Shown here piece by piece: positions 1 through 16,698 of a stretch of 64,000 bases of DNA. How positions within the stretch are numbered: position 1 is the stretch's first letter; each line of letters starts with the position of its first letter. Under the pieces are notes generated by a model, which did not search any database, was not told where the DNA came from, and saw only the letters and a list, made by a program, of their open reading frames with translations. Source of the DNA: Bacteroidia bacterium (lineage in GTDB: Bacteria > Bacteroidota > Bacteroidia > Chitinophagales > UBA2359). The position numbers and the translations under genes are program-made. The DNA lies in contig JAUHXA010000024.1 of the NCBI GenBank assembly GCA_030427245.1, positions 1-64,000 on the forward strand, written 5' to 3'.

Positions 1-3000
1 CGAGCAATTCAAGCCCTGTATCCATAAATGGCGGCAACGATGGCACAGCCCAAGTCACTGCAACAGGCGGCACACCAGCTTACAGCTACGAGTGGACAAC
101 AGGCGGCACAGACGCAACGATAAACAACCTAACAGCAGGCACTTACACCGTAACCGTAACAGATGCCAACGATTGCACCGACACAGCCGAAGCAACGGTA
201 ACCGAGCCAAACGCCCTAACCATCACCTTAGTCGGTCTTGACATCTTGTGTTTCGGAGAAAACACAGGTTCAATCACCAGCACGACCACTGGCGGTATAG
301 GCGGCAATGAATACGCATGGTCAAATGGCGCAACAACCGCTTCAATCAATACCCTTGTAGCTGGCACTTACACCGTCACGATAACAGACGACAACGGCGC
401 AACTGCAACGGATGAAGTAACGCTAAGCGAGCCAAGCGACATCACCCTAACAACCTCCAACACCTCCGTATCCATCAACGGCGGCAACGACGGCACAGCA
501 GGAGTAAGCGCAACAGGCGGCACACCGAACTACGATTACGCATGGAGCAACAATGGCACAACCGCCACCATCAGCAATTTAAGTTCTGGCACCTACACCG
601 TAACGGTCACCGATGCCAACGACTGTACCGACACCGCAGAAGCAACGGTAACCGAGCCAGGTCAATTACAAGTTGGTACAAGTGTAGTAGATGTATTGTG
701 TTTTGGAGAAAATACAGGAGTTGTGACGACTTCGGTAAATGGAGGTGTGAGTCCTTATTCTTATGTTTGGTCGAATGGCAATACCAACAATAGCATCTCG
801 AATGTAACCGCAGGAACTTATATTGTTACGATTACAGACCAAAATGGAGCGAGCAGCGTGACTCAAGGAACAGTAAACGAACCAACTGATTTGGTTTTGA
901 CTGCTTCTGGAACAGATGTGACAATCAACGGCAATAGTGATGGTACTGCAATGGCAAATGTGAGTGGTGGAACACCTATTTACACTTATATTTGGTCAAA
1001 CGGTAGCACAACTGCAAGCATCAACAATTTGCCAACAGGTTCTTATACTGTCACTGTAACCGATGCAAACAACTGCCAAGAAATTGACGGAGTTGCAATT
1101 GGCGAGCCTGATGCAGTAGTCGTTAATTTGATTGATGTCGATGTATTGTGTAATGGCGATGCAACAGGAAGTGCTACTTCTACGGTTAGCGGTGGCATTG
1201 GAGCTTACACCTACTCTTGGTCAAATGGCAATACCGATAGCAGTATTTCAAATGTAGTTGCAGGTACTTATACCGTAACTGTTAGCGATGATAATGGCGC
1301 AACTGCAACGGCAAGTACCCATATTACAGAACCAACTGTATTGACTGCTACTGTTTCTGATTATGACTCAGATTGTTTTGGAGATAGCACTGGCGAATTG
1401 GCAGCAGTAGCCAATGGTGGCACAACTGACTATACTTATACATGGTCAAATGGCGGAGCAACGGCTTCAATCTCTGGCTTAACTGCTGGCACATACACAG
1501 TAACAGTAACCGATGCGAATGATTGCAGCACAACAGCAATGGCAACTGTAACCGAACCAACAGAATTGACTGCAAGTATTTCTGACCACGACTTGGCATG
1601 TTTCGGAGACGATAACGGCGAATTGATGGCGACAGTAGCAGGTGGTACAACGGATTACAGCTACTCTTGGTCAAATGGCGGAGCAACGGCTTCAATTAGT
1701 GGCTTAACTGCTGGCACATACACAGTAACAGTAACCGATGCGAATGATTGCAGCACAACGGCAATGGCAACTGTAACCGAGCCAAGCGAATTGACGGCAA
1801 GTGTTTCTGACCACGATTTAGCTTGTTTCGGAGACGATAACGGCGAATTGATGGCAACAGTAGCAGGTGGCACAACGGATTACAGCTACACTTGGTCAAA
1901 TGGTGGAGCAACGGCTTCAATTAGTGGCTTAACTGCTGGCACTTACACAGTGACGGTAGCGGATGCCAACGATTGCAGCACAACCGCAACAGCAGCTGTT
2001 ACCGAACCAACAGAATTGACTGCCAATGTTGCTGACCACGATTTAGACTGCTTCGGAGACAATAACGGTGAACTTACTGCAACAGTAGCAGGTGGCACAA
2101 CGGATTACACTTATACATGGTCAAATGGCGGAGCAACGGCTTCAATTAGTGGCTTAACTGCTGGCACTTACACAGTGACAGTTACCGATGCCAACGATTG
2201 CAGCACAACAGCAACGGCAGCCGTAACAGAACCAAGCGAATTGACAGCAAGTGTTTCTGACCACGACTTAGCATGTTTCGGAGACGATAACGGAGAACTT
2301 TCTGCAATTGCAGTAGGTGGCACAACCGATTACAGCTACTCTTGGTCAAATGGCGGAGCAACTGTTTCTATCTCTGGCTTAACTGCTGGAACATATACTG
2401 TTACCGTAACCGATGCCAACGATTGCAGCACAACTGCAACAGCAGCAGTTACCGAACCAACTGAATTGACTGCAAGTGTTTCTGACCACGATTTAGATTG
2501 TTTCGGAGACGATAACGGTGAATTGATGGCGACAGTAGCAGGTGGCACAACGGATTACAGCTACTCTTGGTCAAATGGCGGAGCAACAGCTTCAATTAGT
2601 GACTTAACTGCTGGCACATACACAGTAACAGTTACTGATGCCAACGATTGCAGCACAACCGCAATGGCAACTGTAACCGAACCAACAGAATTGACTGCAA
2701 GTGTTTCTGACTACGATTTGGCTTGTTTCGGAGACGATAACGGTGAGCTTACTGCAATTGCAGCAGGTGGCACAACGGATTACAGCTATACTTGGTCAAA
2801 TGGCGGAGCAACAGTTTCCATTTCTGGCTTGACTGCTGGTACTTATACAGTGACAATAACAGATGCCAACGATTGCAGCACAACAGCAACGGCAGCCGTA
2901 ACAGAACCAAGCGAATTGACAGCAAGTGTTTCTGACCACGACTTAGCATGTTTCGGAGACGATAACGGAGAACTTTCTGCAATTGCAGTAGGTGGCACAA

Positions 3001-6000
3001 CCGATTACAGCTACTCTTGGTCAAATGGCGGAGCAACTGTTTCTATCTCTGGCTTAACTGCTGGAACATATACTGTTACCGTAACCGATGCCAACGATTG
3101 CAGCACAACTGCAACAGCAGCCGTAACCGAGCCAACAGAATTGACTGCAAGTGTTTCTGACCACGATTTGGCATGTTTCGGAGACGATAACGGTGAATTG
3201 ATGGCAGTAGCAAATGGCGGCACAACGGATTACAGCTACACTTGGTCAAATGGCGGAGCAACTGCTTCAATTAGTGGCTTGACTGCTGGAACATATACTG
3301 TTACCGTAACAGATGCCAACGATTGCAGCACAACAGCAACGGCAGCCGTAACAGAACCAAGCGAATTGACAGCAAGTGTATCTGACCACGACTTAGCATG
3401 TTTTGGAGATGTTAACGGTGAGCTTTCTGCAATAGCAGTAGGTGGCACAACCAATTACAGCTACTCTTGGTCAAATGGCGGAGCAACGGCTTCAATTAGC
3501 GGCTTAACTGCTGGAACATACACAGTGACGGTTACGGATGCCAACGATTGCAGCACAACCGCAACAGCAGCCGTAACCGAGCCAACAGAATTGACTGCTA
3601 CTGTTTCTGATTATGACTCAGATTGTTTTGGAGATAGCACTGGCGAATTGGCAGTAGTAGCCAATGGCGGCACAATGGATTACAACTACTCTTGGTCAAA
3701 TGGCGGAGCAACGGCTTCAATTAGTGGCTTGACTGCTGGTACTTATACAGTGACCGTAACGGATGCAAATGATTGCAGCACAACAGCAATGGCAACTGTA
3801 ACCGAGCCAAGCGAATTGACCGCAAGTATTTCTGACCACGATTTGGCTTGTTTCGGAGACGATAACGGAGAGCTTACTGCAATTGCAGTAGGTGGCACAA
3901 CGGATTACAGCTACTCTTGGTCAAATGGCGGAGCAACGGCTTCAATATCTGGCTTGACTGCTGGAACATATACAGTGACCGTAACAGATGCCAACGATTG
4001 CAGCACAACCGCAATGGCAACTGTAACCGAGCCAACCGAATTGACGGCAAGCGTTTCTGACCACGATTTAGATTGTTTCGGAGATGCTAACGGAGAACTT
4101 TCTGCAATAGCAGTAGGTGGCACAACCGATTACAGTTATACTTGGTCAAATGGCGGAGCAACGGCTTCAATTAGTGGCTTAACTGCTGGAACTTATACAG
4201 TGACAGTTACCGATGCCAACGATTGCAGCACAACAGCAACGGCAGCCGTAACAGAACCAACTCAATTGACAGCAAGTGTATCTGACCACGACTTAGCATG
4301 TTTCGGAGATGCTAACGGTGAACTTTCTGCAATTGCAGTAGGCGGCACAACGGATTATAGCTACTCTTGGTCAAATGGCGGAGCAACGGCTTCAATCTCT
4401 GGCTTAACTGCTGGCACTTACACAGTGACAGTTACCGATGCAAATGATTGCAGCACAACAGCAATGGCAGAAGTAACCGAGCCAACCCAATTGACTGCAA
4501 GTGTTTCTGACCACGATTTAGATTGTTTCGGAGACGATAACGGTGAATTGATGGCAACAGTAGCAGGTGGCACAACGGATTACAGCTACTCTTGGTCAAA
4601 TGGCGGAGCAATGGCTTCAATCTCTGGCTTAACTGCTGGCACATACACAGTGACTGTCACCGATGCGAATGATTGCAGCACAACAGCAATGGCAGAAGTA
4701 ACCGAGCCAAGCGAATTGACTGCAAGTGTTTCTGACCACGATTTAGATTGTTTCGGAGACGATAACGGCGAATTGATGGCGACAGTAGCAGGTGGTACAA
4801 CGGATTACAGCTACACTTGGTCAAATGGCGGAGCAACAGCTTCAATTAGTGGCTTAACTGCTGGAACATACACTGTTACCGTAACCGATGCCAACGATTG
4901 CAGCACAACCGCAACGGCAGAAGTAACCGAGCCAAGCGAATTGACTGCAAGTGTTTCTGACCACGATTTAGATTGTTTCGGAGACGATAACGGCGAATTG
5001 ATGGCGACAGTAGCAGGTGGTACAACGGATTACAGCTACACTTGGTCAAATGGCGGAGCAACAGCTTCAATTAGTGGCTTAACTGCTGGAACATACACTG
5101 TTACCGTAACCGATGCCAACGATTGCAGCACAACCGCAACGGCAGAAGTAACCGAGCCAACAGAATTGACTGCAAGTATTTCCGACCACGATTTAGCTTG
5201 TTTCGGAGATGCTAACGGTGAACTTTCTGCAATTGCAGTAGGTGGTACAACCGATTACACTTATACTTGGTCAAATGGCGGAGCAACAGTTTCCATTTCT
5301 GGCTTGACTGCTGGTACTTATACAGTGACAATAACAGATGCCAACGATTGCAGCACAACAGCAATGGCAGAAGTAACCGAGCCAACCCAATTGACTGCAA
5401 GTGTTTCTGACCACGATTTAGATTGTTTCGGAGACGATAACGGAGAGCTTACTGCAATTGCAGCAGGTGGCACAACGGATTACAGCTATACTTGGTCAAA
5501 TGGCGGAGCAACAGTTTCCATTTCTGGCTTGACTGCTGGCACATACACAGTGACGGTTACGGATGCCAACGATTGCAGCACAACAGCAACAGCAGCCGTA
5601 ACCGAGCCAACCCAATTGACGGCAAGCGTTTCTGACCACGACTTAGCATGTTTCGGAGACGATAACGGTGAATTGATGGCAACAGTAGTAGGAGGCACAA
5701 CGGATTACAGCTACTCTTGGTCAAATGGCGGAGCAACGGCTTCAATATCTGGCTTGACTGCTGGAACATATACAGTGACCGTAACAGATGCCAACGATTG
5801 CAGCACAACCGCAATGGCAACTGTAACCGAGCCAACCGAATTGACGGCAAGCGTTTCTGACCACGATTTAGATTGTTTCGGAGATGCTAACGGAGAACTT
5901 TCTGCAATAGCAGTAGGTGGCACAACCGATTACAGTTATACTTGGTCAAATGGCGGAGCAACGGCTTCAATTAGTGGCTTAACTGCTGGAACATACACAG

Positions 6001-9000
6001 TGACCGTAACGGATGCTAACGATTGCAGCACAACTGCAACGGCAGCTGTAAGCGAACCAACAGAATTGACAGCCAATGTTTCTGACCACGCTTTGGCTTG
6101 TTTCGGAGATGCTAATGGTGAACTTTCTGCAATTGCAGCAGGTGGCACAACGGATTACAACTACTCTTGGTCAAATGGTGAAGCAACGGCTTCAATTAGT
6201 GGCTTAACTGCTGGCACATACACAGTGACTGTCACCGATGCGAATGATTGCAGCACAACCGCAACGGCAGAAGTAACCGAGCCAACAGAATTGACTGCAA
6301 GTATTTCTGACCACGATTTAGATTGTTTCGGAGACGATAACGGAGAACTTTCTGCAATTGCAGCAGGTGGTACAACCGATTACACTTACACTTGGTCAAA
6401 TGGCGGAGCAACAGCTTCTATCTCTGGCTTAACTGCTGGAACTTATACAGTAACAATTACCGATGCCAACGATTGCAGCACAACCGCAATGGCAACTGTA
6501 ACCGAACCAACTGAATTAACAGCAAGTATTTCTGACCACGATTTAGCTTGTTTCGGAGACGATAACGGCGAATTGATGGCGACAGTAGCAGGTGGCACAA
6601 CAGATTACAGCTACTCTTGGTCAAATGGCGGAGCAACTGCTTCAATTAGTGGCTTAACTGCTGGAACATACACAGTGACGGTAACCGATGCTAACGATTG
6701 CAGCACAACCGCAACGGCAGTAGTTACACAACCAGAAGGAATTGACATGAATGTTGCCGCAACACATTTGGATTGCAGCAATGACACAGACGGAACGGCA
6801 GAAGTGACGGCAACAGGTGGCACAGGTTCTTTGACTTACACTTGGTCAAATGGCGAAACAACGGCTACTATTGACGGATTGGCGTTGGGAACTTACACAG
6901 TGACGGTAACAGACGAAAACGACTGTATGGCTACGGATGAAGTGGCAATTACTGCGGTTTCTGATTGTTCTTCATTGGGAGATTTCGTTTGGTTGGACAT
7001 GAATGGCGACGGTATTCAAGACGATGTTGAAGAAGGAATTGAAGGGGTAACGGTGACCTTATACTTGGCTGACGGAACATTTGTGGCAGACACTAAAACA
7101 GATGAAAATGGTTTCTACTTGTTCGATGACCTTCAATCTGGTAGCTACTATGTTGTATTTACTGCTCCCGATGGTTTGACCGTTTCGGCTGCAAATCAAG
7201 GAGACGATGCCAACGACAGCAATCCGAATGAAGACGGAAAAACAGACATCATTACCTTGGGCATAGGTGAGTTCAACGAAACAATTGACGCAGGCTACTA
7301 TGAGCCTGTAAACTTGGGTGATTTTGTTTGGATGGATTTGAACAGCGATGGCGTTCAAGATGAAGGCGAGCCAGGCATTGAAGGGATCCCATTGAAACTG
7401 TACGATGAAAATGGGGAATTGATTGCTACGACTACCACAGACGAAAACGGTTTCTATGCTTTTGACAACTTACCTCCAGGTACTTACACAGTGAGTGTTC
7501 CAACTTTCGGTCCTGATGGTGAAGAATTGACCACATTGAACAACCAAACAACGACCTTGCTTTCGGGCGAAGAAGATTTGACACTTGACTTCGGTTATGG
7601 TGCAATTGTAAACGCTTTGGGTGATTTCGTATGGTTGGATACAAATGGCAATGGTTCGCAAGGTGGAAATGAAGACGGTATTGCAGGAGTCAATGTGACA
7701 CTTTACAATGCAGATACCAACGAAGAATTGACTTCAACAACAACGGACGAAGACGGTTTCTACTTGTTCACAGGCTTACCAGACGGTAACTACTATGTCG
7801 TGTTTGGCGATGTAGAAAACATGGTCAGAACCGAAAGAGACGCAGGTGGAAACGACAGCAAAGACAGTGATGCAGACGAAAACGGCAAATCTCATACTGT
7901 GAAATTGAGCGGTGGCGAAGAAAACTTGAGCATTGACGCAGGTTACTTGCCGTTGGCACGATTGGGAGATTTCGTTTGGTTGGATTTGGACAAAGACGGA
8001 AATCAAGACGATGGCGAGCCGGGTATTGAAGGAATCACCGTTATTTTGTTGGACGAAAATGGCGATGAAATCGCAACAACGACGACTGACGAAAACGGTT
8101 TATACAGCTTTGACGGCTTGTTGCCAGGCACTTACACTGTATTTGTTCCTTCAACGGGCGCAAATGGCGAAACGCCAACAACAGGCACATCTCAAACAAC
8201 AACGCTTGCAGCAGGCGAACAAGACTTGACGCTTGACTTCGGTTATGCGCCATTGTTGAACAGCTTGGGAGATTTCGTTTGGTTGGATGAAAACAAAAAC
8301 GGTTCGCAAGGTGGCAACGAAGAAGGAATTGAAGGAGTGAGTGTAACGCTTTACAATGCAGACACCAACGAAGAATTGACCAGCACTTCAACGGATGAAA
8401 ACGGTTTCTACTTATTCACCGAATTGGAAGATGGAAACTACTATGTAGTATTTGGCGATGTGGACGGAATGAGCAGAAGCGAAGCGAACAGTAGCGGCAA
8501 CAACGACAAAGACAGTGACGCAGACGAAAATGGTCAGTCTCACACAGTCACTTTAGCGGGTGGCGACAACGATTTGAGCATTGACGCAGGTTACTACTTC
8601 GTGACAAGTTTGGGAGATTTCGTTTGGTTGGATGACGATAGAGACGGTGTTCAAGACGAGGACGAAAACGGTATTGAAGGAGTTGAAGTAACGCTTTACG
8701 ACGCAACAACGAATCAGCCGCTTGACATAACGACTACGGACGAAAATGGTTTCTACTTATTTGAAGACTTAGACGCAGGTAACTACTATGTTGTCTTTGG
8801 CGATGTAGAAGGACACTCATTCAGCCCTGCAAACGAAGGCGGTGACGATGCAAATGACAGTGACGCTGACGAAAACGGTCAGTCACACACTGTTACCTTA
8901 GCATTGGGCGACAACGATTTGACAATTGACGCTGGATTCTTCCCTGTTTGTACTTTGACAATCGCACCACAAGTAAGCGACTGTATTTTTGAAGATGGCG

Positions 9001-12000
9001 AAAGCAAAGCGACTGTTACGGTAACTGTATCTTGGACAAATGCACTGTTTGGCGACAATGTAGTGGTAAGCATTGGAAACGATAGCCGCACAATGCCGAC
9101 AGGCGACGGAAGCGGAAGCATGGACTTCAACTTTGAAGTGGCTGCAAATGGCAACTTCGGAAACATCACCGCTGCAATTGGCGACTTCTGCTCCGAAAGC
9201 ATGGCTTTTGAAGCACCAGAACCTTGTGCAATCGTGAACAGCCTCGGAGATTTCGTTTGGTTGGACGACAACGGAAATGGCGTTCAAGACAATGGCGAAA
9301 CAGGTATTGAAGATATACAAGTAACCTTGTTCAATGCAGACACCAACGGTTCGATTACTTCAACGACTACGGACGAAAACGGATTCTACTTATTCGACAA
9401 CTTGCCTGACGGAAACTACTTTGTAGTGTTTGGCGATGTAGAAGACTTCAATAGAACTTCTGCAAATGAGGGAGGAAACGACGCAACAGATAGTGATGCT
9501 GGCGAAAATGGTCAAACTGCAGGTGTTACCTTAGCAGGTGGCGAAAGCAACTTGACTTTTGATGCGGGCTATTATGCACCTGTCACGATTGGCGATTATG
9601 TATGGTTGGATTTGGACGGCGACGGCGTTCAAGACAATGAAGAAAACGGCATAGGTGGAATCACCGTAACGCTTTTGGATGAAAACGGAAATGTAGTAGC
9701 GACAACGACCACAAACGGCAATGGAAACTATACTTTCAACAACTTGCCTCCTGGTACTTACACTGTGAGCGTTCCTGCAATCGGCAGCAATGGCGAAACT
9801 CCAAGTACTCCAACAACGATTACCCACACTTTGACATCTGGCGAAACGAACTTGACCTACGACTTTGGCTACACACCATTGTTGAACGGTTTGGGAGATT
9901 TCGTATGGTTGGACGACAACGGCAACGGAATCCAAGACAATGGCGAAAGAGGTATCGAAAATGTAATCGTGACCCTTTACAATGCAGACACTGACCAAGA
10001 ATTGGCAAGCACTTCAACCGATGAAAACGGAGGCTATTTCTTCAATGACTTGGTGGACGGCAGCTACTATGTAGTATTTGGCGATGTAAACGGATTCGGT
10101 AGAAGCGAAGCCAACGAAGGCGGTAATGAGGCAACAGATAGTGATGCAGATGCAAACGGACAATCTCACACCCTTGATTTGGCGGGTGGCGAATTTGATA
10201 GAGATGTGGACGCAGGGTACTACGAGCCTGTGACGATTGGCGACTATGTTTGGTTGGATGAAAACGGCAACGGAAATCAAGGCGGCAACGAAGAAGGGTT
10301 GGAAGGCGTGACCTTGACCCTCTTGGATGGAGACGGAAATGTAGTAGCGACCACTGTTTCGGATGAAAACGGTTTCTACGCTTTCACCGACTTGGCTCCA
10401 GGTACTTACACCGTCACTGTTTCGGTCTTGGGACCAAATGGCGAAAACATCACCACCGAAAGCAGTATGACAACGACCTTGACTTCTGGTGAATCTGATT
10501 TGGACTTAGACTTTGGCTACCAAACGGAAGACAATGTATTGGGAGCGATTGGAGATTTTGTTTGGATTGACCAAAACGGCAATGGCATTCAAGACCTCGG
10601 AGATACAGGAATTGCAGGTATTGAAGTAGAATTATTCAACGCTGATACAGGAGCTTCAATGGGAACTACAACGACTGGAACGCTTGGTGACTATTTGTTC
10701 ACAGGTTTAGAAGCGGGCAATTACTTTGTACAGTTCAACTTACCAACAGGCTACCAAACTTCTCCACAGTTTGCGACAGCAGACTTTAGAGCAGACAGCA
10801 ACGCCGACGAAAACGGAACAAGTGACACCATCACATTGGGCGAAGGCGAGCAGAATTTGACCATTGACGCAGGTATTTACGAGCCTGTTGCGATTGGGGA
10901 TTTTGTTTGGAATGATGAAAATGGCGATGGCATTCAAGATGATGGCGAAGTAGGCATTGAAGGAATCACCGTAGTCTTATTGGACGAAAACGGCAATGTG
11001 TTGGCAACGACCGATACGGACGAAAACGGTTTCTATTTGTTCGACAACTTGGCACCAGGTACATACAGCACACTTGTACCACCTGTACTGCCGACAGGTG
11101 AAGAACCAACGACTTTCATCCAAATAGAAACAACTTTGGCTTCTGGTGAATCAGACCTTGATTTGGACTTTGGCTACTGGATTCCTCCAGTAAACGCATT
11201 GGGAGATTACGTATGGTTGGATGAAAATGCCAATGGTATTCAAGATGAAGGCGAACCTGGTTTGGAAGACATCGTAGTAAATATTTACGATGCAACTACT
11301 GGCGAATTGGTGAACAGCACATTGACAGACGAAGATGGTTTCTACTGGTTCGACGGCTTGGCAAATGGTAGCTACTACATTCAGTTGGATAAAATAGAAG
11401 GTACGCTGGAAGTAACCGACCAAAACGAAGGTGATAACGAAACCAACGACAGTGACATTAATGGAGATTTGATTTCAGATGTTGTGACCTTAGAAGGAGG
11501 AATTGACTATCCTGACTTGGATGCAGGTTTGTTTGAAGTAGCGGGATTGGGAGATTTTGTATGGTTGGACTTGAATGGTGATGGCATACAAAACTTGAAC
11601 GAGCCAGGCATTGCAGGCGTACCTGTTACGCTTTTGGATGTCAATGGCGAAATTATTGGAACAACGACAACCAATCTTGAGGGCAACTATTCCTTCAATG
11701 GACTAACGCCTGGTGAATACACCGTAATGGTACCTGTTCTTGGGCCGAATGGTGAAACATTGACCACGTCAATGGAAATGAGTACGGTTTTGTTCTCAGG
11801 CGATTATGTAAACACTTTGGATTTTGGCTACGAGCCAACAGAAGGCATCAGTAGCTTGGGTGGCGTGACTTGGTTGGATGAAGATGGCGATGGCGTGAGA
11901 GATCCGAATGAAGATATTTTGGGTGGAATCTTAGTCATTTTGTACGATGGCGAAGGAAACACAGTCGCTGCAACGTTTACGAACCCCGATGGAACATACC

Positions 12001-14525
12001 TCTTTGCAGGATTAGACCCTGGCAATTACAGCGTTGAAGCTGAAACGACCGGACCAAACGGCGAAACCATAACGACACCGATTGTATTGATAACAGAATT
12101 GGGCTACAATGAACACATTGACGGATTGGACTTTGGCTATCAGCCTTCCGATGGATTGGGTTCTATTGGTGACTTGGTTTGGTACGATACAGATGGTGAT
12201 GGAGTGAAAGACCCATCAGAAGTAGGTATTGAAGGAGTAATTGTCACCTTGACTTTGCCTGATGGCACAACGATTACGGCTATAACCACTTCAACTGGTT
12301 TCTACTTGTTTGACGATTTGGAAGCGGGCAATTATGTCGTGACTGTGGGAGCAGGACCTGATGGCACAACGATTACGACTGTAAACAGCTTCAATGTGAA
12401 CTTGGGCGAAGGCGACCAATTCTTGATTGCTGACTTCGGCTTCATGCCAGAAGAAGAGCTTTTGGGAGCGATTGGTGACTTGGTGTGGTTTGACATTGAC
12501 GGAGACGGAGATTTGGATTCGTTTGAGATTGGACTTGGAGGCATTACGGTTACGATTTACAACGCAGAAGGTGAACCGATTCGCACCGTTGTTACAGAAT
12601 CAGACGGATACTACTTATTTGACAATTTACCAGAAGGTGAATACACGATTGCAGTAGATGAAACAACGGCTCCTGATGGTTTGGTTCCTTCAACGCCTAC
12701 AACGATTACCTACAATTTGACTTCGGGCGAAATCTATTTGGATGCCGACTTTGGCTTTACCATTGACGGTGGCGGTTCTCCATTTGAATTCTGTACAGGA
12801 GAATTGACTACTGTTGAGTTGTGTGTAGATTTGGAAGCGGGCGAAACTTTGATGACCGATGGAACACAAGCCAACTCCAATGGTGCTATCGTAGCTTCGG
12901 CTGAAAACTGTGTGGAATATACGCCAGAATTTGGATTTGAAGGAAACGAAATTGTGACACTGACCATTTGTGACGAAAACGATTTGACCGATTGTCGTCA
13001 AGAAGTATTCTTGCTTGCAGTAGGTTGTCTGCCTCCAAATGCAGTAAACGATGAGGCTTCCATCAATCCTACTTCAACGAGCATCAACGGCAGCATAACC
13101 AATACAACTGCGGGCTACAATGGCATCGAAGTCAATGTATTCAACAACGACTACGATATGTGCTACGAAAACTGGACAACTACCATCACCGACCAACCTG
13201 CAAATGGTACGGCTACGATTAGCACAACAGGTGTGATTGACTATGTGCCGAATGAAGGATTTGAAGGTGTGGACGAAGTGACCTACGAAATCTGCAATGA
13301 ATGTGGTTCTTGTAACTCTGCTATCTTGTCGATTGATGTGACACTTCCCGAAACGGATTGTGAAACGGAAGACTTCAATATCTGTGTCGCTCCAATCACT
13401 CCAATCGAAATTTGTCCTGACTTCTGCTTAGACGGTGATTATGAAATCACCTCTGCTTCAACGACCTACAATTGTAGCATTGCCGTTGCAGACCATTGCA
13501 TCACTTACACTGCTTTGCCACTCTTTGCAGGCAACGATGTGGTCGAAATCATCGCTTGTACTTTGGACGGAACGGTTTGTGATACAAGCTATGTGTACAT
13601 CACCGTTTCTACCGATTGCAGCGAAACCAACTCAGTGATTGCAGTAGATGACAGCGCAGTTTCGCCTCTCGGCAATACGATTGCGATTGATGTAATGGAC
13701 AATGATTCTGACCCAGAGGGAGATACCTTCACCATTACAGCCTTTACCGAACCTGCATCGGGTGTGCTTATCTTAAATGGCAACTTGTTGGAATATACAC
13801 CACTTCCTGGCTATGTGGGCGAAGATTCGTTTACTTACCAAATTTGCGACTCAAACGGTGCGTGTGACGAGGCTACGGTAACGATTGAAGTGACTGGTAA
13901 ATCTTGCAAAGATACCTTGTACTTGTGTGCCGAACCTTTGGAGCCTTTGGTAATTTGTCCTGAGTTCTGTGACTTGCCCGATAGCGACAATGTCACCATT
14001 ACAAATGCACACACGACTTACAGTTGTAGCTTGGCAATGTTGGACGATGGCTGTATTCAATACACCGCCTTGCCACTCTTTGCTGGCGAAGAAACGATTA
14101 CCATCGTTGGCTGCAATGCCTTCGGTCAGTGTGATACTTCTTATGCGGTGATTCAGGTGACGGGCTGCAATGAGGATGGACCGGGTAAAGCGCAACCCAC
14201 CCCTGCCCTCCCGAGTTCTCGGGACAGGCTCTCCGAGGAGGGGAATGATTCCGACCTTTTGTTGGAGGATGTGGAATTGACGCTCAACAGTATCTTACCT
14301 GTTCCTGCAAAGGATTTTGTGACCATCAACTTCACGATGATGCCAGGTGATGCTGTCGTTAGAGTGTTTGATTTGACAGGGAAGGAAATGTCTATCAGCG
14401 AGCTTTCTTCTACTCAAACGCAAAATATGCTCCGACTGGATGTCATGGATTATCCTGTGGGGATTTATGTAGTGAGTATTCAAGCGGGAGGCGAGGTGAT
14501 TTCGAGTAAGTTTATCAAGAGGTAA
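1..14525 (+). CDS. Giant SprB/SdrD-repeat surface adhesin with T9SS sorting domain (5' partial)
   Basis: The reading frame (codons starting at position 3) is open across the left edge, so the true start is outside the window; at least 4,840 residues are visible. Order: about five diverged SprB-like units (to ~1328), 24 near-identical 75-residue SprB-like units (1329-6728), 17 SdrD-B-like modules (6975-12770) with the hallmark LGDFVWLDxNGDGxQD and Ca-binding Asp/Asn runs, one Cys-containing spacer domain between modules 6 and 7 (~8948-9240), then Big/cadherin-like domains with Cys pairs (~12780-14160), a short linker, and a type A T9SS C-terminal domain ending in SSKFIKR. Each SprB unit has two Cys (ANDCST and CFGDDNG). 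By family knowledge such proteins are exported by T9SS and act as cell-surface adhesins, SprB itself in gliding. The adhesive role is inferred; the architecture is directly visible. The linker contains an in-frame palindromic insertion (14192-14245). Two hairpins follow the stop. Confidence 0.93.
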   Translation, partial: SNSSPVSINGGNDGTAQVTATGGTPAYSYEWTTGGTDATINNLTAGTYTVTVTDANDCTDTAEATVTEPNALTITLVGLDILCFGENTGSITSTTTGGIGGNEYAWSNGATTASINTLVAGTYTVTITDDNGATATDEVTLSEPSDITLTTSNTSVSINGGNDGTAGVSATGGTPNYDYAWSNNGTTATISNLSSGTYTVTVTDANDCTDTAEATVTEPGQLQVGTSVVDVLCFGENTGVVTTSVNGGVSPYSYVWSNGNTNNSISNVTAGTYIVTITDQNGASSVTQGTVNEPTDLVLTASGTDVTINGNSDGTAMANVSGGTPIYTYIWSNGSTTASINNLPTGSYTVTVTDANNCQEIDGVAIGEPDAVVVNLIDVDVLCNGDATGSATSTVSGGIGAYTYSWSNGNTDSSISNVVAGTYTVTVSDDNGATATASTHITEPTVLTATVSDYDSDCFGDSTGELAAVANGGTTDYTYTWSNGGATASISGLTAGTYTVTVTDANDCSTTAMATVTEPTELTASISDHDLACFGDDNGELMATVAGGTTDYSYSWSNGGATASISGLTAGTYTVTVTDANDCSTTAMATVTEPSELTASVSDHDLACFGDDNGELMATVAGGTTDYSYTWSNGGATASISGLTAGTYTVTVADANDCSTTATAAVTEPTELTANVADHDLDCFGDNNGELTATVAGGTTDYTYTWSNGGATASISGLTAGTYTVTVTDANDCSTTATAAVTEPSELTASVSDHDLACFGDDNGELSAIAVGGTTDYSYSWSNGGATVSISGLTAGTYTVTVTDANDCSTTATAAVTEPTELTASVSDHDLDCFGDDNGELMATVAGGTTDYSYSWSNGGATASISDLTAGTYTVTVTDANDCSTTAMATVTEPTELTASVSDYDLACFGDDNGELTAIAAGGTTDYSYTWSNGGATVSISGLTAGTYTVTITDANDCSTTATAAVTEPSELTASVSDHDLACFGDDNGELSAIAVGGTTDYSYSWSNGGATVSISGLTAGTYTVTVTDANDCSTTATAAVTEPTELTASVSDHDLACFGDDNGELMAVANGGTTDYSYTWSNGGATASISGLTAGTYTVTVTDANDCSTTATAAVTEPSELTASVSDHDLACFGDVNGELSAIAVGGTTNYSYSWSNGGATASISGLTAGTYTVTVTDANDCSTTATAAVTEPTELTATVSDYDSDCFGDSTGELAVVANGGTMDYNYSWSNGGATASISGLTAGTYTVTVTDANDCSTTAMATVTEPSELTASISDHDLACFGDDNGELTAIAVGGTTDYSYSWSNGGATASISGLTAGTYTVTVTDANDCSTTAMATVTEPTELTASVSDHDLDCFGDANGELSAIAVGGTTDYSYTWSNGGATASISGLTAGTYTVTVTDANDCSTTATAAVTEPTQLTASVSDHDLACFGDANGELSAIAVGGTTDYSYSWSNGGATASISGLTAGTYTVTVTDANDCSTTAMAEVTEPTQLTASVSDHDLDCFGDDNGELMATVAGGTTDYSYSWSNGGAMASISGLTAGTYTVTVTDANDCSTTAMAEVTEPSELTASVSDHDLDCFGDDNGELMATVAGGTTDYSYTWSNGGATASISGLTAGTYTVTVTDANDCSTTATAEVTEPSELTASVSDHDLDCFGDDNGELMATVAGGTTDYSYTWSNGGATASISGLTAGTYTVTVTDANDCSTTATAEVTEPTELTASISDHDLACFGDANGELSAIAVGGTTDYTYTWSNGGATVSISGLTAGTYTVTITDANDCSTTAMAEVTEPTQLTASVSDHDLDCFGDDNGELTAIAAGGTTDYSYTWSNGGATVSISGLTAGTYTVTVTDANDCSTTATAAVTEPTQLTASVSDHDLACFGDDNGELMATVVGGTTDYSYSWSNGGATASISGLTAGTYTVTVTDANDCSTTAMATVTEPTELTASVSDHDLDCFGDANGELSAIAVGGTTDYSYTWSNGGATASISGLTAGTYTVTVTDANDCSTTATAAVSEPTELTANVSDHALACFGDANGELSAIAAGGTTDYNYSWSNGEATASISGLTAGTYTVTVTDANDCSTTATAEVTEPTELTASISDHDLDCFGDDNGELSAIAAGGTTDYTYTWSNGGATASISGLTAGTYTVTITDANDCSTTAMATVTEPTELTASISDHDLACFGDDNGELMATVAGGTTDYSYSWSNGGATASISGLTAGTYTVTVTDANDCSTTATAVVTQPEGIDMNVAATHLDCSNDTDGTAEVTATGGTGSLTYTWSNGETTATIDGLALGTYTVTVTDENDCMATDEVAITAVSDCSSLGDFVWLDMNGDGIQDDVEEGIEGVTVTLYLADGTFVADTKTDENGFYLFDDLQSGSYYVVFTAPDGLTVSAANQGDDANDSNPNEDGKTDIITLGIGEFNETIDAGYYEPVNLGDFVWMDLNSDGVQDEGEPGIEGIPLKLYDENGELIATTTTDENGFYAFDNLPPGTYTVSVPTFGPDGEELTTLNNQTTTLLSGEEDLTLDFGYGAIVNALGDFVWLDTNGNGSQGGNEDGIAGVNVTLYNADTNEELTSTTTDEDGFYLFTGLPDGNYYVVFGDVENMVRTERDAGGNDSKDSDADENGKSHTVKLSGGEENLSIDAGYLPLARLGDFVWLDLDKDGNQDDGEPGIEGITVILLDENGDEIATTTTDENGLYSFDGLLPGTYTVFVPSTGANGETPTTGTSQTTTLAAGEQDLTLDFGYAPLLNSLGDFVWLDENKNGSQGGNEEGIEGVSVTLYNADTNEELTSTSTDENGFYLFTELEDGNYYVVFGDVDGMSRSEANSSGNNDKDSDADENGQSHTVTLAGGDNDLSIDAGYYFVTSLGDFVWLDDDRDGVQDEDENGIEGVEVTLYDATTNQPLDITTTDENGFYLFEDLDAGNYYVVFGDVEGHSFSPANEGGDDANDSDADENGQSHTVTLALGDNDLTIDAGFFPVCTLTIAPQVSDCIFEDGESKATVTVTVSWTNALFGDNVVVSIGNDSRTMPTGDGSGSMDFNFEVAANGNFGNITAAIGDFCSESMAFEAPEPCAIVNSLGDFVWLDDNGNGVQDNGETGIEDIQVTLFNADTNGSITSTTTDENGFYLFDNLPDGNYFVVFGDVEDFNRTSANEGGNDATDSDAGENGQTAGVTLAGGESNLTFDAGYYAPVTIGDYVWLDLDGDGVQDNEENGIGGITVTLLDENGNVVATTTTNGNGNYTFNNLPPGTYTVSVPAIGSNGETPSTPTTITHTLTSGETNLTYDFGYTPLLNGLGDFVWLDDNGNGIQDNGERGIENVIVTLYNADTDQELASTSTDENGGYFFNDLVDGSYYVVFGDVNGFGRSEANEGGNEATDSDADANGQSHTLDLAGGEFDRDVDAGYYEPVTIGDYVWLDENGNGNQGGNEEGLEGVTLTLLDGDGNVVATTVSDENGFYAFTDLAPGTYTVTVSVLGPNGENITTESSMTTTLTSGESDLDLDFGYQTEDNVLGAIGDFVWIDQNGNGIQDLGDTGIAGIEVELFNADTGASMGTTTTGTLGDYLFTGLEAGNYFVQFNLPTGYQTSPQFATADFRADSNADENGTSDTITLGEGEQNLTIDAGIYEPVAIGDFVWNDENGDGIQDDGEVGIEGITVVLLDENGNVLATTDTDENGFYLFDNLAPGTYSTLVPPVLPTGEEPTTFIQIETTLASGESDLDLDFGYWIPPVNALGDYVWLDENANGIQDEGEPGLEDIVVNIYDATTGELVNSTLTDEDGFYWFDGLANGSYYIQLDKIEGTLEVTDQNEGDNETNDSDINGDLISDVVTLEGGIDYPDLDAGLFEVAGLGDFVWLDLNGDGIQNLNEPGIAGVPVTLLDVNGEIIGTTTTNLEGNYSFNGLTPGEYTVMVPVLGPNGETLTTSMEMSTVLFSGDYVNTLDFGYEPTEGISSLGGVTWLDEDGDGVRDPNEDILGGILVILYDGEGNTVAATFTNPDGTYLFAGLDPGNYSVEAETTGPNGETITTPIVLITELGYNEHIDGLDFGYQPSDGLGSIGDLVWYDTDGDGVKDPSEVGIEGVIVTLTLPDGTTITAITTSTGFYLFDDLEAGNYVVTVGAGPDGTTITTVNSFNVNLGEGDQFLIADFGFMPEEELLGAIGDLVWFDIDGDGDLDSFEIGLGGITVTIYNAEGEPIRTVVTESDGYYLFDNLPEGEYTIAVDETTAPDGLVPSTPTTITYNLTSGEIYLDADFGFTIDGGGSPFEFCTGELTTVELCVDLEAGETLMTDGTQANSNGAIVASAENCVEYTPEFGFEGNEIVTLTICDENDLTDCRQEVFLLAVGCLPPNAVNDEASINPTSTSINGSITNTTAGYNGIEVNVFNNDYDMCYENWTTTITDQPANGTATISTTGVIDYVPNEGFEGVDEVTYEICNECGSCNSAILSIDVTLPETDCETEDFNICVAPITPIEICPDFCLDGDYEITSASTTYNCSIAVADHCITYTALPLFAGNDVVEIIACTLDGTVCDTSYVYITVSTDCSETNSVIAVDDSAVSPLGNTIAIDVMDNDSDPEGDTFTITAFTEPASGVLILNGNLLEYTPLPGYVGEDSFTYQICDSNGACDEATVTIEVTGKSCKDTLYLCAEPLEPLVICPEFCDLPDSDNVTITNAHTTYSCSLAMLDDGCIQYTALPLFAGEETITIVGCNAFGQCDTSYAVIQVTGCNEDGPGKAQPTPALPSSRDRLSEEGNDSDLLLEDVELTLNSILPVPAKDFVTINFTMMPGDAVVRVFDLTGKEMSISELSSTQTQNMLRLDVMDYPVGIYVVSIQAGGEVISSKFIKR
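1329..6728 (+). repeat. 24 tandem 225-bp SprB-like repeat units
   Basis: The motif gattgcagca recurs every 225 bp without exception from 1521 to 6696, giving 24 units with no indel. Each unit encodes 75 residues of the form ELTAxVSDHDLxCFGDDNG ... GGTTDYSYxWSNGGATxSI ... TAGTYTVTVTDANDCST. Units differ by scattered, often synonymous changes, and identical variants recur in non-adjacent units (for example 3911-4123 and 5711-5923), which points to unequal exchange or gene conversion. Long identical stretches make the copy number vulnerable to assembly collapse. Confidence 0.95.
6975..12770 (+). repeat. 17 SdrD-B-like modules in alternating A/B subtypes
   Basis: Seventeen occurrences of the GDxVWxDxNGDGxQD-type opening divide this part of the adhesin into modules. 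Subtype A ends in a DAGYY-like strand after a GNYYVVFGDV segment. Subtype B has PPGTYTVSVP, a TTTLxSGE stretch and ends in LDFGY. The order is A B A B A A, a spacer domain, A B A B A B A B, then three more B-like modules. The Asp/Asn-rich openings match Ca2+-binding loops of SdrD B domains (PF17210), which rigidify stalks. Confidence 0.85.
14192..14245 (+). repeat. Palindromic element inserted in frame in the adhesin linker
   Basis: The perfect inverted repeat CCCGAG-TT-CTCGGG (14210-14223) sits inside outer arms ccctcc/ggagggg. It is read in frame as a Pro/Ser/Arg/Glu-rich linker between the last extracellular domain and the sorting domain, with a composition unlike the surrounding protein. 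The core and right flank (CGAGTTCTCGG plus CAGGCTCT) recur in reverse orientation at 14880-14901 in non-coding DNA, so this looks like a small interspersed repeat that landed in a coding sequence. Confidence 0.7.
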
Positions 14526-14978: not shown

Positions 14979-15119
14979 GAGCAAAAATTCCTCCGAAACC
15001 CCAATTCCTGTTCCTCCTACGCCCAATTGAGCAAAATTCCTCCGAAACCCCAATTCCTGTTCCTCCTACGCCCAATTGAGCAAAAATTCCTCCGAAACCC
15101 CCAATTCTTGTTCCCGTTT
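14979..15119. repeat. ~50-bp tandem repeat, three copies
   Basis: Units start with gagcaaaa at 14979, 15029 and 15078 and contain cctccgaaaccc and ccaattcctgttcctcc. The first two copies are almost identical (50 and 49 bp). The third breaks off at the end of the KilA-N/LytTR gene, whose stop lies at 15118 on the other strand. Function unknown. Confidence 0.8.
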
Positions 15120-16368
15120 ACCCCTCCTGCAATTTCTTGATATGCTTCAAAAAAGCAGGCTGTTGTCGGCGAGCAATCGGGACTTGCCATTGCCATTTGC
15201 GGTGGAGATAGACGATTTTCTCACGGCTATCTATGGTGGTGATGTACCGAAGATGTACGATGTATTTGTGGTGTGGACGCACAAATAAATAGGTGGGCAA
15301 TTCCTTCTCAAGTACATTGAGTGGAAACAATACGGTGTGTTGTTTGCCATCTTGGGTGTGAATGATGGAGTGGTCACCTGCTCCTTCAATGAAAACGATG
15401 TCGAGATGAGCGATTTTGTGAAACAAATGGCGGTCTTTATAGTAGAAAAAATTGGGTTGCTCTTGTAGGGAAGTAGGGGAGTGCGTATTGGAGGAATGGG
15501 CCGAAAGTCGTTTTTTGGCTTTCAAATCTGCTTCCAATTGACGCACTTTTTCTTCACGTTTCAAGAGTTTGTAACACTCTTTCTGCAAATCTCCAACTTG
15601 ACTCGTTAGGTTGTCAATCAGCTTGTCTTTGTCCTCCAAATGCTTCTGCAAAAGTTGGATTTTTTCCTCCAATTGTGCTAAGTTTTGGTGGTAAGCGGCA
15701 TTTTTATGTCGTTTCATCAATGGCAATTCTGTTACCAAATTGTCAATGAAGTGCTGCAATTCTTTGGTCAATTCAAACCATTCACCGTGCAAGCGAAGAT
15801 GTGGAAAAAGTGCGTGGACATCGGAATCAGATTGATAGACTTCATTGACCCTTACAATCTTCAACAACTCCAATTCATCTGGACCATCCGTTTTCAAGCC
15901 TTCCATGCGTCGCTTCAAATTGTTGGTCATACCGATTTTCACCCGATTCAAGAGTTTTGCCTTTACAAAATAAATCACGCGAAAATCGGTAGCAGGTTCT
16001 AAAGTCGTGAATCCATCTACCAACAACTCTTCAATTTTTTCATCTACCCAAATCGCAAAAAATGGGTCGAGCCATTGGGCTAAACGGATGCCGATTAACT
16101 TGTGAACCCAAGTGCCTTGAAGGGCTGGATTACCTCCTTGATGCGTATATATTAAATCTTTTTCCGTAGCGGGGATTCCCGCTACGGATTTATTCAGATG
16201 TATAAGTAACGCTTTAACATACTCTTTGGTAGATTTTAGGCGTAAAAAATCATTGGCTTTTTTACCAAATACCTTTGCCATCTGTAGAGCATTGATTATT
16301 TTGTGCTCTTTGGAGAAATCAAAAGTGATTTCATAATCATTGTAATTAAAAACGTGTAAATTTGTCAT
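15118..16368 (-). CDS. KilA-N / T5orf172 (GIY-YIG-like) / coiled-coil / LytTR fusion protein
   Basis: The protein has 416 residues. Residues ~10-118 are a KilA-N domain (ALQMAKVFGKKANDFLRL, GGNPALQGTWVHKLIG, LAQWLDP), a DNA-binding fold of phage antirepressors. Residues ~128-212 match the T5orf172/MUG113 branch of GIY-YIG (VIYFVKA, VKIGMTNNLKRRM, GEWFEL). Residues ~224-287 are a charged coiled coil. Residues ~308-412 are a LytTR DNA-binding domain (IVFIEGAGDHSIIHT, FVRPHHKYIVHL). No receiver domain is present, so it is not an ordinary LytTR response regulator. The domains are recognised by eye; whether the GIY-YIG part is catalytic is not decided. Residues 61-69 are encoded by a perfect palindrome. 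An XRE gene lies ~120 bp upstream on the same strand. Probable role: DNA-binding regulator of phage or mobile-element ancestry. Confidence 0.85.
   Translation of the reverse strand: MTNLHVFNYNDYEITFDFSKEHKIINALQMAKVFGKKANDFLRLKSTKEYVKALLIHLNKSVAGIPATEKDLIYTHQGGNPALQGTWVHKLIGIRLAQWLDPFFAIWVDEKIEELLVDGFTTLEPATDFRVIYFVKAKLLNRVKIGMTNNLKRRMEGLKTDGPDELELLKIVRVNEVYQSDSDVHALFPHLRLHGEWFELTKELQHFIDNLVTELPLMKRHKNAAYHQNLAQLEEKIQLLQKHLEDKDKLIDNLTSQVGDLQKECYKLLKREEKVRQLEADLKAKKRLSAHSSNTHSPTSLQEQPNFFYYKDRHLFHKIAHLDIVFIEGAGDHSIIHTQDGKQHTVLFPLNVLEKELPTYLFVRPHHKYIVHLRYITTIDSREKIVYLHRKWQWQVPIARRQQPAFLKHIKKLQEG
16164..16187. repeat. Perfect palindrome inside the KilA-N coding region
   Basis: CCGTAGCGGG and CCCGCTACGG form a perfect 10-bp stem with a GATT loop. 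It is read in frame as residues 61-69 (SVAGIPATE) of the KilA-N domain, at a point between two conserved blocks where related domains usually have a short linker. Confidence 0.85.
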
Positions 16369-16398: not shown

Positions 16399-16435
16399 AG
16401 GCACTGTTTAACTTTCGCAGGTTAGGGCAGTGCCT
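16399..16435. promoter_or_regulatory. Inverted repeat in the leader of the KilA-N/LytTR gene
   Basis: AGGCACTG (16399-16406) and CAGTGCCT (16428-16435) form an 8-bp perfect inverted repeat with a 21-nt loop. It lies 31-67 bases upstream of the KilA-N/LytTR start and downstream of the XRE stop. It could be an operator, an attenuator or the XRE terminator; nothing in the sequence decides between these. Confidence 0.4.
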
Positions 16436-16488
16436 TGTTTGTTTTTACAAAGATAAGGAAAAATATAATAAATGCAATATTGTGCGTT

Positions 16489-16698
16489 TTATTTTCTTGT
16501 TCTTGAAATGATTATTTCTATGTCGTACCCCAATGCTTCCACTACTTTCTTCAATGTATCCCAATAAGCTTGTCTTTCTGCTTCAATGTATTGGATGGTT
16601 CTTTTGGAGACTTCTGAAAGGTCTGCTAATTCTTGTTGGGTAAGATGAAGTTTTTTTCGCTCTTGTTTGATGAATTGTGCGAGTTCTTGGTAGGTCAT
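16489..16698 (-). CDS. XRE-family helix-turn-helix regulator (69 aa)
   Basis: This is a single compact HTH_3 domain: LTQQELADLSEVSKRTIQYIE is the classic helix-turn-helix, and TLKKVVEALGYDIEI closes the fold. The length is typical of HipB-like or phage Cro/CI-like small repressors. No HipA-type toxin lies downstream; the next gene on the strand is the KilA-N/LytTR fusion about 120 bp away. Repressor plus KilA-N protein resembles a phage repressor/antirepressor pair, which is an inference. The recognition-helix segment after IEAE has Gln-Ala-Tyr-Trp in place of the Gly-rich turn common in the family. Confidence 0.85.
   Translation of the reverse strand: MTYQELAQFIKQERKKLHLTQQELADLSEVSKRTIQYIEAERQAYWDTLKKVVEALGYDIEIIISRTRK

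Follow-up and report, generated by a model that had tools for sequence, protein, structure and literature searches.

A single gene in the window, by which we mean the whole 64,000-nucleotide stretch of Bacteroidia DNA that was analysed, encodes a protein in which a KilA-N domain, a T5orf172 domain, a coiled coil and a LytTR domain are joined. This protein, P0001, has two paralogs elsewhere in the genome, and the three genes share one element in their leaders. While every part is known, as are chimeric T5orf172 proteins, the novelty lies in the addition of LytTR and in a three-member family with a common leader element. The reading that we prefer, tentatively, is that P0001 is an intact chimeric regulator of mobile-element descent that would be autoregulated, dimeric and DNA-binding, with a nuclease that is probably weakened.

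Domain organisation of P0001

15118-16368, minus strand: gene of P0001, the KilA-N/T5orf172/coiled coil/LytTR protein; 416 residues, single open reading frame, two paralogs elsewhere in the genome
16024-16347, minus strand: KilA-N domain, residues 8-115; Pfam PF04383 (6e-18), predicted APSES-like DNA-binding fold
15760-15975, minus strand: T5orf172/MUG113 domain of the GIY-YIG superfamily, residues 132-203; Pfam PF10544/PF13455 (9e-11/4e-11)
15496-15699, minus strand: coiled coil, residues about 224-291; one long predicted helix
15139-15420, minus strand: LytTR DNA-binding domain, residues 317-410; Pfam PF04397 (7e-13)

The frame of P0001 runs from ATG to TAA over 416 codons with no internal stop. 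KilA-N scores 65 bits against a curated Pfam cut-off of 23.8, T5orf172 (132-203) 42.7 bits against 20, MUG113 (143-203) 43.8 bits against 22.3 and LytTR 49 bits against 22.6; the latter is also related by sequence to the LytTR structures of AgrA (E 0.002). These matches and the long predicted helix confirm the claim of a preliminary description of this DNA that one protein carries all four parts. They support a single polypeptide combining two different DNA-binding-type domains with a nuclease-fold domain. As had also been stated, there is no receiver domain: the Pfam scan matched none in P0001, which is therefore not a LytTR response regulator.

The same description had proposed a domesticated antirepressor that loops or marks DNA. 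In its narrow sense this does not stand, since it needs an ANT/KilAC part, and Pfam matched none in P0001 or in its two paralogs, which sets P0001 apart from the KilA-N/ANT antirepressors of phages. Looping or marking of DNA is not supported either.

Structure prediction, suggested at the outset as a check, agreed with the domain calls. The full-length AlphaFold model of P0001 is reliable for KilA-N and the coil only. The T5orf172 domain was predicted with a pLDDT of about 88-98 in its core blocks, and the top eleven chains by Z among the nearest solved folds were UPF0213 proteins, Slx1 and I-TevI, of the GIY-YIG type (Z 4.3-5.4, moderate); on this model the domain belongs to the GIY-YIG superfamily fold. 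KilA-N (pLDDT mostly >90) gave as its best Foldseek matches the fungal APSES domains of PCG2, a solved DNA complex (4ux5, E 0.004), and Mbp1 (1bm8, E 0.03), E-values at which an APSES-like DNA-binding fold is suggested by the model. The helix at 224-291, with a block-mean pLDDT of about 74-96, fits a coiled coil, which is likely a dimerisation element.

Within the KilA-N coding part lies a perfect 11-bp palindrome, TCCGTAGCGGG-GATT-CCCGCTACGGA, at 16163-16188. The stretch that bears it exceeds that of the paralogs in length, and the palindrome is unique in the 615 kb of the genome sampled.

Two paralogs and the origin of the C-terminal modules

A search of the genome (7.58 Mb, 187 contigs) revealed two further paralogs on other contigs, unlinked, and P0001, L002 and L003 are its only KilA-N proteins above cut-off. 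L002 (contig C148) has 391 residues in one frame, with KilA-N, T5orf172, coil and LytTR in the order of P0001 and its domains above the Pfam cut-offs. Because it repeats this domain order on another contig in one frame, P0001 is not an artefact. Thus, both outcomes that the preliminary description had named as grounds against itself are excluded: the profile matches leave no two of the three domains failing, and the same four parts elsewhere rule out a frameshift or an assembly join.

The other paralog, L003 (contig C71), has 438 residues, with KilA-N and T5orf172 above the Pfam cut-offs, a coil and a different C-terminus, in which Pfam matched nothing. This part resembles the end of the NCBIfam BT3442 family (E 3e-9, far under the model's whole-protein cut-off) and, by eye, may be LuxR-type helix-turn-helix-like. 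The genome's fourth T5orf172 protein (L055, 1489-2433) has leucine-rich repeats after the domain.

P0001 and L002 are 46% identical in KilA-N, 59% in T5orf172 and 21% in LytTR, and the LytTR of P0001 is closer in identity to 20 of the 20 compared host LytTR domains than to that of L002. In the LytTR tree the two do not group (AU p 0.0096); as the branch of L002 is very long, separate acquisition of LytTR by P0001 and L002 is only suggested. Furthermore, GC3 within P0001 rises from 0.35 (KilA-N) to 0.52 (LytTR), and is 0.33 in the neighbouring XRE gene. Taken together, the LytTR identities, the tree, this gradient and the other C-terminus of L003 suggest, without proving, that C-terminal modules were exchanged on a common KilA-N/T5orf172 core. 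Module exchange has been reported for phage T5orf172 endonucleases (PMC10448857).

A leader element common to the three genes

16400-16434, minus strand: leader inverted repeat GGCACTGCC...CAGTGCC, common to all three paralogous genes (from their alignment)
16448-16456, minus strand: Bacteroidota-type -7 box TTATCTTTG, with TTG at 16475-16477, 19 nt before TATCTTTG
16489-16698, minus strand: gene of a 69-residue XRE/HipB-like regulator, upstream of P0001 on the same strand (HTH_3, 1e-9)

The -7 box, called on the Bacteroidota promoter consensus, is conserved, the paralogs having TTATCTTTA and TTATATTTG. In all three genes the order is -7 box, inverted repeat and start codon, the motif lying between box and ATG. 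Its core, AAAGTTN{1,4}CAGTGCCT, has three sites in the 7.58 Mb, one before each paralog, against about 0.25 expected from base composition by our estimate; the reversed control gave none. The shorter palindrome GGCACTN{12,30}AGTGCC was tried as a specific mark and rejected: it hits five genome sites, with one in the control, so that only the longer core motif is specific.

When the leaders were folded as RNA and compared with shuffles, z was -5.6 for the window gene and -2.5 and -2.7 for the paralogs. As the two arms pair incompletely in the paralogs and no compensatory changes were seen by eye, the folds do not divide an RNA from a DNA role: this could be an RNA element, or the leaders could be alike through the common descent of three related genes. 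Since L003 lacks LytTR and yet keeps the element, its natural reader would be the shared core, and it is likelier that this core, most likely KilA-N, reads the leader.

The T5orf172 active site

15826-15828, minus strand: codon for Asp181, which aligns with the catalytic Glu (Odn E180)

In Odn, this Glu is needed, and the E180A protein is inactive (PMC8263062). At the same position, both P0001 and L002 have Asp, and L003 has Glu. We compared 34 T5orf172 proteins: of 395 genomes of the class, 46 encode the domain, and the set covers most of the proteins found in them, with near-duplicates removed and a few added from other searches. Glu occupies the position in 27 of these 34 proteins; in a second alignment, mostly of viral sequences, the 52 other members all have it. 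Asp is also found in four other proteins of the 34, which are long and have T5orf172 at or near the N-terminus; ResIII is matched by four members of the set, probably the same four. Over the 34 proteins K144, G146, R154 and E196 are invariant and Y133 and H185 rarely vary, and P0001 has retained all of them. With Asp in place of the Glu that was tested in Odn, its set of catalytic residues is incomplete, which bears on activity and not on membership of the fold family. Asp181 need not mean inactivity, because four other T5orf172 proteins have Asp there; on a careful reading of the alignments, the nuclease of the LytTR copies may be reduced rather than lost.

Distribution and relation to known systems

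KilA-N and T5orf172 had been described as domains of viruses and phages that co-occur there. Their relationship to viral and mobile elements stands, but the co-occurrence was not seen in the prokaryotic viruses sampled: 37 of the 56 phage KilA-N proteins sampled end in ANT/KilAC and none in T5orf172 or LytTR, and among 50 phage T5orf172 proteins none has KilA-N, Rha, Bro-N, terminase small subunit, HTH_17 and GntR being matched once each. Viral scans with the core profile or with L002 gave no match, and with L003 T5orf172 matches only. The view of LytTR as a cellular domain agrees with the two weak matches found in 50,697 phage records.

At the level of the order, 398 genomes were searched and relatives of the core appeared in 17 besides the source. 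Most of them have KilA-N alone, in frames no longer than 281 residues; the longest frame (314 residues) is a T5orf172 match, and none of the 17 genomes has a relative as long as the three paralogs. In two draws from the phylum, the core and KilA-N occurred, at the cut-offs used, in the source genome only. Among the 34 T5orf172 proteins, three have KilA-N and two LytTR, all from the source genome, so that the survey of Bacteroidota proposed by the preliminary description found the same domain order in no other genome of this set. More generally, neither LytTR nor KilA-N was found joined to T5orf172 outside the source genome in the collections sampled, a non-exhaustive choice. A Chitinophaga T5orf172 protein (L009, 7920-8681) has, by eye, two HTH-looking repeats in its C-terminal half, where Pfam gives no confident match. 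In the literature searched, a single paper names KilA-N and LytTR together, apparently as a general census of transcription factors. The arrangement had been presented as undescribed; this holds for the sets searched, but a LytTR without a receiver is known in CoxC (MHYT-LytTR; PMC11347149).

Indeed, CoxC and RcoM resemble P0001 in having a C-terminal LytTR driven by a non-receiver N-terminus (PMC11347149), which is a gas sensor in them and a DNA-binding/nuclease-fold core in P0001. Odn (ICP1 gp88) likewise joins T5orf172 to a DNA-binding domain from elsewhere that sets the target (PMC8263062); it has an N-terminal RepA_N and Glu180, whereas P0001 has KilA-N, coil, LytTR and Asp, and belongs to three chromosomal paralogs. 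I-TevI shares the GIY-YIG fold, a separate DNA-binding part, an element at its own promoter and a leader RNA hairpin (PMC2988022). It differs in being intron-encoded, with an HTH and a zinc finger and without KilA-N or LytTR, and its autorepression is proven while we infer that of P0001. The phage KilA-N antirepressors, which have KilA-N at the N-terminus, are the closest phage relatives of residues 1-120 of P0001, and differ in the C-terminal ends counted above. Finally, phage Rha-T5orf172 and Bro-N-T5orf172 proteins (one each in the 50) also place a phage DNA-binding regulator domain before T5orf172, with Rha or Bro-N instead of KilA-N and no LytTR.

Genomic surroundings

One neighbour of the P0001 gene encodes a giant repeat protein; on the other side are ordinary genes of metabolism and transport. 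In the giant frame (246-14525, 4759 residues), a near-identical repeat (DCFGDDNGEL...TVTEP) recurs dozens of times and the C-terminus resembles a sorting signal; by eye, the product looks like an SprB-like surface protein. Three copies of a repeat, TTCCTCCGAAACCC, lie at 14985-15106; the repeat is also present near the C71 paralog. It was rejected as a mark of mobility, being dispersed, with 22 matches (at most one mismatch) in the 615 kb sampled.

Some 2 kb separate the C148 paralog from an island of type III restriction-modification and DndD/DndH-like genes, in which a type III methyltransferase, a restriction helicase, a DndD-like and a DndH-like protein are encoded in a row (L064, 7877-15929). 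The cassette of this paralog is flanked by an intact gene (L064, 3560-4513) and a decayed copy of that gene (L064, 6380-6663). The genes around L003 encode long proteins whose C-terminal ends are alike. No neighbourhood common to the three loci was found, and the surroundings point to no single function; a PADLOC search for defence systems gave weak, partial matches only.

Regulator or nuclease

We propose that a KilA-N/T5orf172 core from a mobile element has been joined, via the coiled coil, to host-type C-terminal domains, namely LytTR in two paralogs and a BT3442-like part in the third. The coil would most likely make a dimer and the C-terminal domain would choose the genomic target, while the core, most likely KilA-N, would bind the shared element in its own leader. 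Self-repression would follow from the recognition of this element in the leader of each gene: the paralogs would repress their own genes, and perhaps one another's, as I-TevI does at its operator, and the HipB-like XRE protein would be a likely second repressor. Because the catalytic Glu is replaced by Asp, the T5orf172 of the LytTR copies is probably weakened, and the protein may act chiefly by occupying DNA. I-TevI and Odn show that each mechanistic step is possible. Indeed, I-TevI binds and represses its own operator, which it cuts about 100-fold less than its homing site (PMC2988022), and in Odn, T5orf172 is joined to a borrowed DNA-binding domain and has proven to be a nuclease (PMC8263062). 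CoxC regulates transcription with a LytTR whose N-terminal partner is not a receiver (PMC11347149).

What speaks against a regulator is that all the other conserved T5orf172 residues are kept, which would be unexpected for a dispensable nuclease. Their retention in three diverged paralogs favours the main rival, which we regard as somewhat unlikely, namely a nuclease directed to a specific target: KilA-N and the C-terminus, be it LytTR or another, would bring an active T5orf172 to a site in invading DNA or in an empty allele, and the leader would keep expression low. Besides the nuclease of Odn, it is favoured by the wide spread of T5orf172 among homing endonucleases of phages, in which the DNA-binding domains are swapped (PMC10448857). 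The three copies are unlinked and each has a promoter box and a leader to itself, as would suit a mobile cassette, and the C148 copy lies close to the restriction island. However, Asp replaces the catalytic Glu in both LytTR copies, the window copy has no recognisable defence context, and the PADLOC matches are weak and partial. More doubtful still is the idea that the chromosome encodes a family of DNA-binding nucleases that control themselves, where a single KilA-N/T5orf172 chassis would carry interchangeable host C-termini (LytTR, diverged LytTR, BT3442-like) under a leader read by the chassis, with a HipB-like lock in two of them.

The HipB-like neighbour

In both LytTR loci an XRE gene of 69-71 residues lies directly upstream on the same strand; the two are 61% identical, and no other relative was found in the genome at E<=0.001, nor any XRE gene near L003. 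The best NCBIfam model of the window's XRE protein is TIGR03070 couple_hipB (7e-14, under its cut-off). This constant pairing and this match are what a toxin-antitoxin-like module has in its favour, with the XRE protein as antitoxin or repressor of a DNA-damaging KilA-N/T5orf172/LytTR effector. We consider such a module very unlikely: the -7 box of the KilA-N gene falls in the roughly 120 bp between the two genes, which makes their separate transcription likely from the sequence, and the XRE gene of the C148 locus is followed by a hairpin of its own. Moreover, L003 has no adjoining XRE gene, the HipB-like match stays under the cut-off, and the neighbour is a KilA-N protein rather than HipA, so that this is not a HipBA-type pair. 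Equally improbable is a functionless relic of a prophage or selfish gene, duplicated and drifting: the patchy distribution, the strongly diverged LytTR of L002 and the cassette between a gene and its decayed copy fit it, but three intact frames of 391-438 codons, T5orf172 residues kept at 32-59% identity and a conserved promoter box and leader suggest selection.

Significance

The paralogs, the leader element, the XRE partner and the Glu-to-Asp change carry most of the information, and were invisible to the preliminary description. Within one chromosome, a KilA-N and GIY-YIG-type core of viral or mobile origin is joined to bacterial domains in three variants. With the same leader and core and differing C-termini, these offer a testable case of such a core turning regulator, in which a natural Glu-to-Asp change sets the LytTR copies apart from the third paralog.
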